Below the pieces are notes generated by a model, which made no database searches, had not been told where the DNA came from, and worked only from the letters and a program-made list of their open reading frames with translations. Shown here in pieces: positions 6,974 through 12,407 of a stretch of 64,000 nt of DNA. The first letter of the stretch is position 1; each line of letters begins with the position of its first letter. Source of the stretch: Orenia metallireducens (lineage in GTDB: Bacteria; Bacillota; Halanaerobiia; Halobacteroidales; Halobacteroidaceae); assembly GCF_003001995.1 (NCBI RefSeq), contig NZ_PVNB01000001.1, forward strand, positions 1 through 64,000, given 5' to 3'. The position numbers and the translations under genes are program-made.

Positions 6974-8830
6974 CTAAACTTCAAATTTATCAACCAATTC
7001 ATGTAACTTCTGAGCCATATTAGCCAGCTCTTGTGAAGAGTAGGTAACCTCTGCAGACATATTACTGATATCATCAGTAACATTTATGATTTCTTGACTA
7101 TTATCTGCTAAACTCTGACTAGAAGCAGCAGTCTTTTCAAGGTGAGTAAATGTACTTTCACTAGAATCTTCGATCTCTTTAAAGAGATTGCCTGCACTTT
7201 CTATAATCTCTTGTCCATCTTTAGTCTTTGATTCAACTTGATTAATAGCTTTTAGAGCAGATTTAGACTTACCTTTAATCTCTACTACCAAATTGGAAAT
7301 CTCTGATGTTGCATTATTAGTCTCTACTGCTAGCTCTCTAATCTCATCTGCTACTACTGCAAAGCCTCGTCCATACTCCCCAGCTCTCGCTGCCTCAATA
7401 GATGCATTAAGTGCTAATAGATTGGTCTGTTCAGCTATATTATTGATTAAATCAATAATCTTTTCGATCATCTGTGAATCATTATCTAGCTGATTAATCA
7501 CCTCTACAGTCTCCCCTACCACTTGATTAATATCTTTGATACTAACTACTGCATTTTTAATATTACTACTTCCTATTTCAGTTTTAGAACTAGCTTCTTT
7601 AGAAAAAGAGGTGACCTCTTGCACACTACTAGAAATTTGTTGTATACTTGTTGATATTTCTGCTATAAGCTGTCTAGTATTCTCTATAGTCGCATTACCT
7701 TCTTGACTAGAGGCAGATAACTCTTCACTAGTTGATGAAATATCACTAGCTGCTTCTAAAACATCGATTACAATCTTCTTTAAGTTATCAACCATAGAGT
7801 TAAATTCTATTGCTAATTGTCCTATTTCATCATTACGTTTAGAATCAATACTTACTTGCAAATTACCCTGAGCAACTTTCTTCATAACCTTAATTAATTC
7901 AGAGATAAAATCTATTAGATACTTCTTGATAAAGATAGAAATAAATATAGCCACTAAAATTAACACAATAATATCTACTATTAAAATTTGTCTACCAATC
8001 TTGTTCTTACTTTCATAAACTTTCTCAACTGAATTCTGGGCGAATATAACCCCATCAATTACAGGTAGTGATACATAAGAAGCCATCACTTCTTTATCTT
8101 TAAAAGAATACTCCACACTTCCCCTTTTATTACTCTTAACAGTGTTCATATCTATAATTTGCCCTAAATCATAGCTCTTTTCAATCATCTCTTTATCTGG
8201 ATGAGCAATGACCTCATTATTTTTATTAGCAACATACACATAACTAGAATCAGTTGAACTAGCAATTACCATACTCTGTACAGGAGTTAACAACATATCT
8301 ATGCCCAAAGCTCCTATAAAATCACCATTATCATTAATTACAGGGGCTACTAAAGTAATTAATGGCTTCTTAAGCCCTTTATCTAAATGAAGATCGCTCC
8401 ACATAATATCTTTGCTATTTTTAATCTCTTGATACCAAGGCTTATCATTAATGTTGATCTCTTCATCTTCAGGATAAAAATAATTTTGACCAAAGCTTGT
8501 ACTAAGATATAGCCTTACAAAATAAGGATAATCATCCTTTAAATTCTCAAATAGATCTCTGACTGCCCATTCATTTGCATACTTAACAGAATCTTGGCGG
8601 GAAATCAATTTTATTATCTCTTCTTTTCTATAAAAAAAGGACTCAATTTGATTCTTTAATCCATCTGCTTTCTCCTCATTCTTTTCTTGAGCTAATTTAG
8701 TCAGCTCCTTTGATACAGAATTATTGACTATTAACCCTAAGATTAGAAATGAAATTACTAAGATAGCAACTATAGTACCTACAGCTTTAAAGGATAGATT
8801 ATTCTTTAGGTTTACTTCCTTTAATTTCAT
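6974..8830 (-). CDS. Methyl-accepting chemotaxis protein with Cache sensor
   Basis: A 618-residue transducer. TM1 is at about residues 13-35. A periplasmic double-Cache domain (about 40-275) contains the characteristic DKPWYQEI and GALGIDML segments. TM2 is near 285-305, followed by HAMP to about 355. The cytoplasmic signalling domain has the conserved hairpin tip [29 protein letters not shown] precedes ATG 8830. The neighbour just upstream on the same strand is an orphan TRAP-type binding protein, so the receptor may sense the same class of carboxylate ligand; this is a guess from adjacency. No other chemotaxis genes are nearby. Confidence 0.93.
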
Positions 8831-8867
8831 AATATTACATTTCCCTCCTTTTATTATCTAAATACTA

Positions 8868-8913
8868 GATAAGAGGTTTCTTTCTATAGCTAACAATGAA
8901 AGAAACCTCTTAT
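8868..8913 (-). terminator. Hairpin after the TRAP binding-protein gene
   Basis: AAGAGGTTTCTTTC and GAAAGAAACCTCTT form a 14-bp stem with a 13-nt loop between dctP and the chemoreceptor gene. The T-run is weak, so it may be an attenuating or RNA-stabilising hairpin. Confidence 0.6.
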
Positions 8914-8922
8914 TATCAATAA

Positions 8923-9993
8923 TTATTTACCTTCTAAATCTTTTAATAAAATTTGATATAACTCTTCTCCAATTATCTTTCTCCATTTAGCTCTTACCGG
9001 CTCTGTCTTAGCTTTAAATGCTTCATATTGTGCAGCAGATAAGGTATTAACCTTCATTCCTTTGCTCTCAATAAATTTTATAGGGTCTTCAAAAGAAAAT
9101 ATACCTTCTTCATTATTCTCTTTTAAATAATTCAATGCACTACCATCATCAAGACCCATCCTTGCTAACATCTGCTCATATTCTAAAGCTTCTTTAGCAG
9201 ATTGTTCAATAATATTTTGGGTTTTACTATCAAAATTATCCCAGACATCTTTATTAATACCAATCACTAATGGATCAAATAGATAATTCCATAAGGTAAT
9301 ATGAGTATGATAGTTCCAAATTTTAACTGGTATCTCTACACCCAATAATGGATTTTCTTGACCATCAACTACACCTTGCTTAAACCCATTGATTGCTGAT
9401 CCCCAAGGCATACTTACTGGTCTTGCACCTAAAGCATTATAGGTATCAAAAAAGATAGGTGTCCCAACTACTCTAACTCTAAGTCCTCTCAAATCATCAG
9501 GACTTGTAATTGCTCTTTTACTATTAGTAATTTGACGAAATCCATTTTCTCCCCAACCAAATGCCTTAACACCCTTCTTTTCTAGTGTATTTAAAATATA
9601 TTCTCCAGTTTTACCACTATAGATGGCATCAATCTGATCATAGCCTTGATACATAAAAGGTAGAGAAAAGACATTTAACTCCTTAACCTGAGATGACCAG
9701 TTAATAGTAGAAGATATAGCCATATCTATCTGTCCTTGCTGTAACATTGCAAATTCATTTGTCTGCTTCCCTGCAAAGAGTTTCCCACCAAAATAAGGTT
9801 TAATATTCACCTTTCCTGCTGTTCTCTCTTCTACTAGCTCAACAAACCTTTCTGCCCCAGCTCCCCAAGGAAACCCTGGTCCAACAACTACACTAAGTTT
9901 ATATTCTTCTTTAAATTCAGCGGCAGACCCTACTGAAATATTAACAAATAGCATTAATGTTAAGACCAATAAAATCAATAATTTCTTCTTCAA
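8923..9993 (-). CDS. TRAP transporter solute-binding protein, DctP family
   Basis: A 356-residue periplasmic binding protein. The signal peptide covers residues 1-24 and ends near VGSAA. The mature part has the DctP fold with the conserved segment LRGLRVRVVGTPIF, in which the arginine binds the carboxylate of the ligand, and the PWGSAINGFKQGVVDGQENP segment. TRAP systems import carboxylic acids on ion gradients, but the DctQ and DctM membrane subunits are not in this window, so this is an orphan or works with distant partners. Lack of a lipobox fits an organism with a periplasm. Adjacency to a Cache chemoreceptor suggests a role in ligand sensing. Confidence 0.9.
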   Translation of the reverse strand: MKKKLLILLVLTLMLFVNISVGSAAEFKEEYKLSVVVGPGFPWGAGAERFVELVEERTAGKVNIKPYFGGKLFAGKQTNEFAMLQQGQIDMAISSTINWSSQVKELNVFSLPFMYQGYDQIDAIYSGKTGEYILNTLEKKGVKAFGWGENGFRQITNSKRAITSPDDLRGLRVRVVGTPIFFDTYNALGARPVSMPWGSAINGFKQGVVDGQENPLLGVEIPVKIWNYHTHITLWNYLFDPLVIGINKDVWDNFDSKTQNIIEQSAKEALEYEQMLARMGLDDGSALNYLKENNEEGIFSFEDPIKFIESKGMKVNTLSAAQYEAFKAKTEPVRAKWRKIIGEELYQILLKDLEGK

Positions 9994-10033
9994 TTTATCT
10001 TCCCCCTTAAAATCTCTTTTATAGAATTTAAAA

Positions 10034-10063
10034 ATAAGCTCCCTCTAAAAGAGGAAGCTTATT
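10034..10063 (-). terminator. Terminator after the acetolactate decarboxylase gene
   Basis: AAGCTCCCTC/GAGGAAGCTT forms a stem followed on the minus strand by TTATTTTTAAA. Confidence 0.7.
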
Positions 10064-10080
10064 TAATTTAGAGTTAAACT

Positions 10081-10875
10081 CTACTCTTCAACATCTTCTA
10101 AATCCTCGCCTGATTCTTCATTTAGCTTTATCTTTCTAAATGAATTACTGTGAGGTAAGATTAATTGGAAGCCTGATGAATAATCAATTTGAACTTCTCC
10201 ACGCTTTAACTGGCATTCAAGTAAATGCCCTCCACCTGTACGGTCTTCATTAATGAAGTGTAGATGAAATTTAGGAACATTAATTCCATTAACATAATAT
10301 GGAGACCAAAAACCAACTAATGTTCCCTTGGTATTATAAAAATCAAAGGTTGGTTGCGTAGCCGCTATTTTAGCCAACTTTGGATATGGCTTGCTCTGCT
10401 TAGGCACACTACGAGTCTTCACATGTTTAAATTCCCCTTCAATCTTAATAGCATAGAATATATTCTTACTTGGCAACAATTCTGTTAACTCTTTTTTAAG
10501 CTCCTCAATATCCTTTACTCCCTTAAATACAGCACTTTTATCTTCATCAAAATATGTAGCTACAGCAAAAGGAGTTTTGACAATATCTGAAACCTCTTTT
10601 ACCTCTCCAGTAGATTTTACTTGATAAGCTACACCATCTAAAATAACCATCTCTCCATCTAAATCATGGAAAGTTCCAAGACCAAAGTTACCATGGTCTA
10701 ACAATTGACCAACAGTAATATCTCCATCATATAATCCTTGTAATAAAGCATCGATTGTTGAAATTTGAAATAAAGTATCTTGCCCCTCAATCTGAGCATA
10801 AGCAGTTAAACTTAAACCCATTACTAATAAAAAACTTACTACTAAATAAAAACTACTTTTTTTGATAATCTTCAT
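10081..10875 (-). CDS. budA: Alpha-acetolactate decarboxylase with signal peptide
   Basis: A 264-residue BudA/AlsD that converts acetolactate to acetoin. The family signatures are the early GxFGLGTFHDLDGEMVILDG region and the zinc ligands in KFHLHFINEDRTGGGH (two His separated by one residue, then a third). An N-terminal signal peptide (residues 1-27, hydrophobic core then AYAQ) indicates export, as in some Bacillus homologues. The C-terminal tail is acidic. RBS GAGGGG is present. The leader carries a c-di-GMP riboswitch and a terminator, so expression probably answers to the second messenger. No acetolactate synthase gene is adjacent. Confidence 0.93.
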   Translation of the reverse strand: MKIIKKSSFYLVVSFLLVMGLSLTAYAQIEGQDTLFQISTIDALLQGLYDGDITVGQLLDHGNFGLGTFHDLDGEMVILDGVAYQVKSTGEVKEVSDIVKTPFAVATYFDEDKSAVFKGVKDIEELKKELTELLPSKNIFYAIKIEGEFKHVKTRSVPKQSKPYPKLAKIAATQPTFDFYNTKGTLVGFWSPYYVNGINVPKFHLHFINEDRTGGGHLLECQLKRGEVQIDYSSGFQLILPHSNSFRKIKLNEESGEDLEDVEE

Positions 10876-10930
10876 AGCTATCCCCTCTCTGAATATAAGT
10901 TTTTGAATAATTATTTAAAAATCTATTAAC

Positions 10931-10957
10931 TATGCTGAAAAATGTTTTTCAGCATAA
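10931..10957 (-). other. Second hairpin in the budA leader
   Basis: ATGCTGAAAAA and TTTTTCAGCAT form a long AT-rich stem between the riboswitch terminator and the budA RBS. There is no T-run on the minus strand. It may stabilise the readthrough mRNA. Confidence 0.5.
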
Positions 10958-11003
10958 CAAAAAAATAAATAGTCCTATCCCTCTAAATGAAAGGAATAGA
11001 ACT
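10957..11003 (-). terminator. Intrinsic terminator of the c-di-GMP riboswitch
   Basis: On the minus strand AGTTCTATTCC pairs with GGGATAGGACT (11 bp, two G-U), followed by ATTTATTTTTTTG. It lies about 25 nt downstream of the aptamer and 82 bp before budA. This fits a transcriptional on/off switch. Confidence 0.8.
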
Positions 11004-11027
11004 GCTTACTTTTCTATTCACTATTCT

Positions 11028-11115
11028 TTCGGTAGTCTGACGATCTTAGTACAAAATTGTACCTTAGACTCAAAAACTTTGCGACCTTATCTTTCAATAA
11101 GTGTGCTATTTCAGG
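11028..11115 (-). promoter_or_regulatory. Cyclic-di-GMP-I (GEMM) riboswitch aptamer
   Basis: Read on the minus strand the element has the GEMM-I landmarks in order: GCACACTTAT, a GAAA tetraloop closed by an ATAAG arm, GGTCGCAAAG, GAGTCTAAGG with a small variable hairpin, TAAGATCGTCAGACT, then TACCGAA. These match the conserved GAAA tetraloop, the CGCAAAG strand, the CUAAG receptor side and the terminal UACCGA of class I c-di-GMP aptamers. A terminator follows, then budA. Likely promoters lie in 11116-11230. No covariance-model search was possible here. Confidence 0.85.
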
Positions 11116-11348
11116 AATAATAAAGATATATTATATTTTTATACCAAAAATGATAACTAAAAGGATCAAATAGTTATATCTCTTATATTATGTTAAAATT
11201 ATACCATGTATAATATACCAAATCAAGTTAATAAACTAATTTAATGGTTTAAATTTCATTCAAACAATTATTTGCTTAACTTTTTGAAAAATTTACATTA
11301 TCTAATAGAAAATCGGTTTTAACAAAATATTTTCGCCAAAAATTAAAC
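11116..11348 (-). promoter_or_regulatory. Promoter region of the riboswitch-budA transcript
   Basis: AT-rich and without ORFs. On the minus strand TTGATT, 17 bp, TATAAT (around 11190-11230) is the best promoter match, which would place the transcript start roughly 70 nt before the aptamer. A second TATAAT-like word lies closer. The remainder is unremarkable. Confidence 0.4.
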
Positions 11349-11379
11349 AAGATGGTTTCTCTGACCTAGAAACCATCTT
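11349..11379 (-). terminator. Terminator downstream of pfkA copy 1
   Basis: AAGATGGTTTCT/AGAAACCATCTT 12-bp stem, T-rich on the minus strand. The same hairpin with the same flank (CCAAAAATTAAA) occurs at 22284-22316 near the other pfkA copy. Confidence 0.8.
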
Positions 11380-11435
11380 AAACTTACTCAACGATAAGTA
11401 TATTGAGCTATTCTACTGTCTTCTTTCTATTAATT

Positions 11436-12407
11436 TTAATAACAGATCATCTTAGTCAACTCATAATTTTTATCATTGAAGCTCTTCTGCTCACTATTTA
11501 CTACCTCTAAATCTACTGCCTCTACTACATTATTTCTAACCCCTACCATCTTAGCATTTTCTCCTTTAACCAGTTGATTAACCGCCTCTGCTCCTAACTT
11601 ACTTGCCAAGACCCGATCAAAGAACGTTGGACGTCCACCACGTTGTTGATGACCCAACAAGGTCTCTCTGATCTTATACCCTAAGCGCATCTCTAGCTCT
11701 CTACTAATATCATCAACCTTTCCTACACCCTCAGCCATCAAAATAATCCCATAATTTTTACCGATTTCAAACTTTCTCTTTAAATTATCAGCAACCTCAT
11801 CATAATCTATCTCTAGCTCAGGAATTAATAGTCCATCTACACTTCCTGCTAAGGTAGAGTTCATGGCAATCTCCCCAGAATGGCGACCCATCACCTCAAT
11901 TACAAAGACCCGAGGAGTATCTCCTACTAACGAGGTAGCAGTATCTAAAATTCTATCGACTGTCTCGGTAACGATATTACAAGCAGTATCAAAGCCAATA
12001 GCATAATCTGTTCCTGTAATATCATTATCAATGGTTCCAGGTACACCTATTACCTTCACTCCTGCATCTACTAACTTTTGCGCTCCCTTCATTGAACCAT
12101 TACCACCGATCACCACCAATCCATCTAGCTCTAGGTTTTTGATATTAGCTAATGCCTTCTTAAAACCTGTCTCACTTTGAAACTCCTTGGTTCTACCAGT
12201 CTTGATTATCGTGCCCCCATAGCTGACAATCTCTTCTACATCTAATATTTCTAACTTTCTATACCTCTTCTCTAGAAGTCCAATATAGCCAGCCTCGATT
12301 CCTAAAACCTCTAAATTATGATATGTACCGGCCTTCACCACAGCTCGCAAGGTAGCATTCATCCCTGGAGCATCACCACCACTTGTTAACACACCAATTC
12401 TTTGCAT
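11436..12407 (-). CDS. pfkA: 6-phosphofructokinase, copy 1
   Basis: A 323-residue PfkA that phosphorylates fructose-6-phosphate. The nucleotide loop is LTSGGDAPGMN, the substrate/catalytic segment is PGTIDNDI, and HQQRGGRP binds the effector/substrate. The Gly in GTIDND favours ATP over pyrophosphate as donor. The motif usually written GGDGS is GGNGS here (Asn for the Mg-linked Asp), which is unusual for the short bacterial enzymes I know. The start at 12407 is set by AGAGGTG; an upstream in-frame extension is not supported. About 880 bp from the RBS to codon 288 are almost identical to pfkA copy 2 at 22552-23523, while the last 35 residues have diverged. It lies downstream of the ula operon and can take up its fructose-6-phosphate. 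Confidence 0.94.
   Translation of the reverse strand: MQRIGVLTSGGDAPGMNATLRAVVKAGTYHNLEVLGIEAGYIGLLEKRYRKLEILDVEEIVSYGGTIIKTGRTKEFQSETGFKKALANIKNLELDGLVVIGGNGSMKGAQKLVDAGVKVIGVPGTIDNDITGTDYAIGFDTACNIVTETVDRILDTATSLVGDTPRVFVIEVMGRHSGEIAMNSTLAGSVDGLLIPELEIDYDEVADNLKRKFEIGKNYGIILMAEGVGKVDDISRELEMRLGYKIRETLLGHQQRGGRPTFFDRVLASKLGAEAVNQLVKGENAKMVGVRNNVVEAVDLEVVNSEQKSFNDKNYELTKMICY

Follow-up and report, generated by a model that had tools for sequence, protein, structure and literature searches.

c-di-GMP riboswitches usually control flagella, pili, chemotaxis and surface proteins. In the GEMM-I class, contact with the two guanines of c-di-GMP is made through G20 and C92. Pocket changes at these positions are reported to reduce c-di-GMP affinity in the Vc2 aptamer (PMC9049102). 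An A at position 20 is the hallmark of the cGAMP-type GEMM-Ib switches, and Vc2 carrying G20A binds cGAMP; contacts in the Geobacter cGAMP aptamer involve A12, U13 and A14 (PMC7288161). Among GEMM-I platforms, Cd1 of C. difficile is a transcriptional OFF switch, in which an antiterminator competes with the holo aptamer and the terminator, which can both be present at once (PMC9262584). The locus described here, upstream of an acetolactate decarboxylase (ALDC) gene, provides a new target gene for this known riboswitch class within a narrow lineage, with its ligand and direction of control predicted below.

A c-di-GMP-I aptamer in the aldB leader

The window is the whole stretch of 64,000 nucleotides that was analyzed, from a 4.1-Mb genome. 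A reading made from its sequence alone had described, at 10931-11230, a budA leader with a c-di-GMP-I aptamer pattern, an intrinsic terminator and then a second hairpin. The coordinates are correct, and the three elements were recovered in that order. The features of the leader are as follows.

11198 to 11226, minus strand: promoter, TTGATT-17 nt-TATAAT with TG before the -10 element; best promoter match in 8700-11500 (10/12)
11115 to 11124, minus strand: 5′ strand of P1, UUUAUUAUUC, mostly just beyond the Rfam model; pairs with 11026-11017 in the leader folds
11028 to 11117, minus strand: c-di-GMP-I aptamer (GEMM-I, RF01051) upstream of aldB, by Rfam covariance model
11107, minus strand: pocket nucleotide 20 (Vc2 numbering, Rfam model alignment), A where the usual letter is G
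11032, minus strand: pocket nucleotide 92, C here and U in the sister ortholog
11012 to 11026, minus strand: antiterminator 5′ arm, GAAUAGUGAAUAGAA, whose first ten bases double as the P1 3′ strand (folding by transcript length, both species)
10989 to 11001, minus strand: antiterminator 3′ arm, UUCUAUUCCUUUC, which doubles as the terminator 5′ arm (computed folding)
10959 to 11003, minus strand: intrinsic terminator, a 14-pair stem (11003-10971) and a U-rich tail
10930 to 10957, minus strand: second hairpin, UAUGCUGAAAAA/UUUUUCAGCAUA, between the terminator and the start codon
10882 to 10889, minus strand: ribosome binding site, GAGAGGGG, read from sequence

The minus-strand scan with RF01051 that the earlier reading had proposed returned a full-length match at 11117-11028. 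It scores 65.2 bits, far over the gathering threshold of 35, with an E value of 1.7e-10 for the 64-kb window searched against all of Rfam. Every model pair is standard in the alignment, and A47 and the G21-C46 pair are present. With a covariance model built for the class, the seed of which comprises 33 aptamers of the class, including the aldB aptamer of the window, the score is 84.6 bits. The seed alignment shows strong covariation, with double changes in 16 of 23 pairs (0/500 shuffles). The score, together with conservation in the sister species, rules out a chance match and confirms a c-di-GMP-I-type aptamer at the aldB leader. This aptamer is one of two GEMM-I aptamers in the genome, the other being located upstream of flgB.

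The promoter, of the sigma-70 type, has the same letters in the sister species. The terminator is top-ranked in the region and presents a z score of −3.9 against shuffled sequence. The second hairpin (z −5.6) keeps the base of its stem in the sister with a changed loop, has no U run directly after it, and may play a role in mRNA stability.

The ligand pocket and its variation

The aldB aptamer combines A20 with C92, and its sister ortholog G20 with U92. Across the class (161 aptamers), position 20 holds G in 143 cases and A in 18 (about 11%), and position 92 holds C in 157 and U in 4, with G21, C46 and A47 invariant (161/161). A20 and G20 alternate in the class before the same gene types, namely flgB and one membrane-sensor family. 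Given A20, full-strength binding of c-di-GMP is not to be assumed for the aldB aptamer; since changes at G20 and C92 weaken this binding, the modest expectation is a higher c-di-GMP threshold. With U92 in the sister, this locus shows two different pocket changes, which could reflect relaxed constraint. This variation at both positions, at one locus in sister species, offers a clean, small test of A20 as a predictor of cGAMP sensing.

Related variation is found elsewhere in the class. In one family, the GEMM-I aptamers before a PilB-like type IV pilus ATPase gene carry A20 in 5 of 5 cases (L117, L251, L256, L267 and L268), one of them also with U92, against a mixed state elsewhere; these are candidates for a real difference in ligand or threshold. 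In one other genus, flgB-type riboswitches alternate between A20/C92 (L061, L114 and L118) and G20/U92 (L123).

The pocket changes could mean that the aptamer is decaying, with A20 here and U92 in the sister weakening binding and aldB being effectively constitutive with partial termination. Each ortholog is indeed altered at a different one of the two ligand-pairing bases, and ALDC is missing altogether from the remaining species of the genus. The aptamer is, however, the best-conserved part of the locus, with 94.4% identity to the sister, compared with 91.2% for the coding sequence, 89.7% for the linker and terminator, and 71% further upstream. Furthermore, both species retain intact P2 and P3 helices, A47, C46, G21 and a competing antiterminator, which makes decay unlikely.

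A shift of the switch to 3′,3′-cGAMP, in the manner of the GEMM-Ib type, would pair A20 with the ligand's adenine and would tie aldB to cGAMP instead of c-di-GMP. The pocket combines A20 with C92, the J1/2 letters before the P2 closing pair are A-U-A, like in the Geobacter cGAMP aptamer, and the G20A mutants of Vc2 set a precedent for cGAMP binding; the sister's G20/U92 could fit the same hybrid ligand in the opposite orientation. The cyclases of the genome argue against this shift. The guanine-contacting site is Asp in 16 and Asn in 2 of the 18 GGDEF matches in this genome, and the Hypr serine was found in none of the 18, nor in the GGDEFs checked from the sister species G007 (10/12), from G006 (10/15) and from G029 (18/20), a genome that also carries A20 aptamers. 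A search of this genome for a SMODS (DncV-like) cyclase also returned none, although the two GGDEFs with Asn leave room for another source of cGAMP. As A20 interchanges with G20 before the same kinds of genes and no Hypr enzyme was found, A20 was rejected as proof of cGAMP sensing. The same two observations make c-di-GMP the likelier ligand of the aldB switch, perhaps with reduced affinity, and a shift to cGAMP improbable.

A GGDEF protein with Asn at this site (GHPAGNEAL, with an intact GGEEF) is conserved across the three species of the genus (L006 in G000, L225 in G007 and L236 in G006). Two c-di-GMP-II riboswitches of this genome exceed the cut-off, one preceding the gene of a hemerythrin-like protein and one that of a small uncharacterized protein; two more score below it, one near a PilB-like gene and one before a peptidase-like gene (L243, L244, L245 and L246; gene names by eye).

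The split between A20/C92 and G20/U92 separates species both at aldB and at flgB, and each combination could conceivably accommodate a ligand that has one G and one A. This argument is weak because there are four U92 cases in all. That both sister aldB switches sense the hybrid ligand 3′,3′-cGAMP through mirror-image pockets, in a bacterium that has no known Hypr cyclase, is very improbable.

Direction of the switch and proposed mechanism

The leader was folded at growing transcript length, using thermodynamic energies without tertiary contacts or ligand terms and a predicted start site. In this genome, the aptamer with P1 is preferred up to ~198 nt. Between 202 and 218 nt, the antiterminator beats the P1 form by ≤3.2 kcal/mol here and by ≤2.7 kcal/mol in the sister. 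When the transcript also includes the terminator 3′ arm, the best fold in this genome contains both the terminator and P1, whereas in the sister the terminator wins and the combination of P1 and terminator lies within 1.5 kcal/mol. As P1 lends its 3′ strand to the antiterminator, ligand binding that locks P1 would be expected to favor termination, which corresponds to an OFF switch at high c-di-GMP. The same P1/antiterminator arrangement is found in a paralog of the sister species (L029), upstream of a gene for an exported protein.

The aldB leader is thus likely a c-di-GMP-I-type OFF riboswitch that acts by transcription termination, with c-di-GMP as its most likely ligand. An ON switch, in which the ligand prevents termination, is most improbable: very similar aptamers can serve ON or OFF platforms (PMC9262584), but here the P1 3′ strand belongs to the antiterminator and not to the terminator, and the minimum-energy fold holds P1 and the terminator together. 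The riboswitch control of ALDC put forward in the sequence-only reading is supported by the aptamer, the termination platform and conservation in the sister; A20 leaves its choice of c-di-GMP as ligand less settled. That reading named no direction of control, for which the folding predicts OFF.

In the proposed OFF mechanism, transcription would start near 11191, and the aptamer, including the P1 helix, would be the earliest fold. Without ligand, the antiterminator hairpin (11026-11012 with 11001-10989) would capture the P1 3′ strand and block the terminator, so that the putatively exported ALDC would be made. With ligand bound, P1 would be held and the antiterminator blocked, the terminator at 11003-10971 would form, and aldB would be off. 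The ligand would most likely be c-di-GMP, perhaps bound with an affinity below the usual given A20. The enzyme would then be produced in the motile state, when c-di-GMP is low, and would convert acetolactate to acetoin outside the cytoplasm. A motility/attachment signal thus probably switches off a fermentation enzyme. A riboswitch before an ALDC gene that is otherwise absent from the sampled class would place extracytoplasmic acetoin formation in the motile program.

The decarboxylase and its neighboring genes

The genes and elements downstream of the leader, and the cyclase gene named in the earlier reading, are as follows.

10081 to 10875, minus strand: aldB/budA, acetolactate decarboxylase, 264 amino acids (PF03306, 1e-87; TIGR01252)
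10795 to 10875, minus strand: predicted ALDC signal peptide, residues 1-27, cleavage after AYA (by eye; similar in the sister)
10032 to 10064, minus strand: terminator hairpin after aldB, −19.5 kcal/mol, z −5.1, followed by a U run
8923 to 9993, minus strand: DctP-type TRAP solute-binding protein (protein family match)
6974 to 8830, minus strand: methyl-accepting chemotaxis protein, dCache-HAMP-MCPsignal (domain matches)
40106 to 38376: open reading frame of a GGDEF/HD-GYP protein (GGDEF domain confirmed; HD-GYP part read from sequence)

ALDC scores 282.6 bits against TIGR01252 (cut-off of 180.65) and is 45% identical to the Brevibacillus ALDC 4bt2. The alignment to 4bt2 shows that it keeps His204, His206 and His217, which we take to be the metal ligands, and Glu75 and Arg155, presumably active-site residues. 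By eye, its N terminus (MKIIKKSSFYLVVSFLLVMGLSLTAYA|Q) presents MKIIKK, a hydrophobic stretch and AYA|Q, and contains no Cys. The enzyme had been described as a secreted acetolactate decarboxylase; the family assignment is borne out by PF03306 and TIGR01252, and the signal peptide, as read by eye, suggests export.

A strong hairpin with Ts after it (10064-10032), the stem of which is largely kept in the sister, indicates that aldB is probably monocistronic. The TRAP protein and the chemoreceptor do lie directly downstream, as had been noted, but aldB's own terminator probably leaves them outside the riboswitch transcript. An aldB-dctP-MCP operon under one switch was set aside on account of this hairpin, with read-through possible. 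A further hairpin, with no clear run of Ts, lies in the gap between dctP and the chemoreceptor gene. The conserved aldB-dctP-MCP order may reflect shared use. As for the GGDEF/HD-GYP protein that the earlier reading pointed to at 38-40 kb, the open reading frame and its GGDEF domain were found, and the HD-GYP part is as read from the sequence; with 18 GGDEF matches across the genome, the closeness of this one means little. The window also contains a T-box leader at 63844-63607 on the minus strand (122.6 bits).

Distribution and origin

ALDC is present in 2 of 59 genomes of the class, this one and the sister species G007, and is absent from the third species of the genus. The gene order in G007, pfkA-aptamer-aldB-dctP-MCP, is the same as here. 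The host appears to be a halophilic anaerobe. A single-sequence scan recovered no distant ALDC relatives, while an alignment-based scan gave 80 distant loci from many phyla, with about 41-52% identity. No c-di-GMP riboswitch over the cut-off was found at any of the 80 loci, within flanks of ≤3 kb that contig ends shortened at several loci. An old, widespread pairing of ALDC with the riboswitch was rejected on this result, and the presence of ALDC in 2 of 59 class genomes, taken together with it, indicates that the pairing seems limited to this genus. Literature searches for ALDC with a c-di-GMP riboswitch returned no reported case.

The aldB aptamer and platform resemble other members of their riboswitch family, with identities of 86% and 77%, respectively, to L021 and 76% and 68% to the flgB switch L030. 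The simplest history would be that the genus gained the ALDC gene and that a resident riboswitch of the motility type was copied in front of it.

The distant homologs (L143-L222) include ones, in metagenome-assembled genomes of Omnitrophota, Aerophobetes and anammox bacteria, that match the query from its first residues and so probably carry N-terminal signal sequences. Some methanogen homologs (L165 and L170) also match from near the start.

Comparison with known systems

The secreted ALDC of Brevibacillus brevis (PDB 4bt2) and the enzyme described here have the metal histidines and the active-site Glu and Arg in common, and differ in the predicted riboswitch control of the latter. The Geobacter GEMM-Ib/cGAMP riboswitches (4YAZ, pilM) combine A20 with C92, as does the aldB aptamer, whereas the aldB platform is predicted to be of the OFF type and this genome has no detected Hypr cyclase. 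Within the genus, the flgB riboswitches (L001 and L030) have aptamers 74-76% identical to that of aldB and a related terminator platform (CUAUUCCUUUCAU), but, unlike the aldB switch, carry G20 and serve a flagellar target. Cd1, which precedes the flagellar operon of C. difficile, has a GEMM-I aptamer like the aldB leader, and its OFF design is experimentally known, while that of aldB is predicted. In contrast to Cd1, the aldB switch has A20 in its pocket, and its target is a metabolic enzyme, probably exported, instead of flagella.
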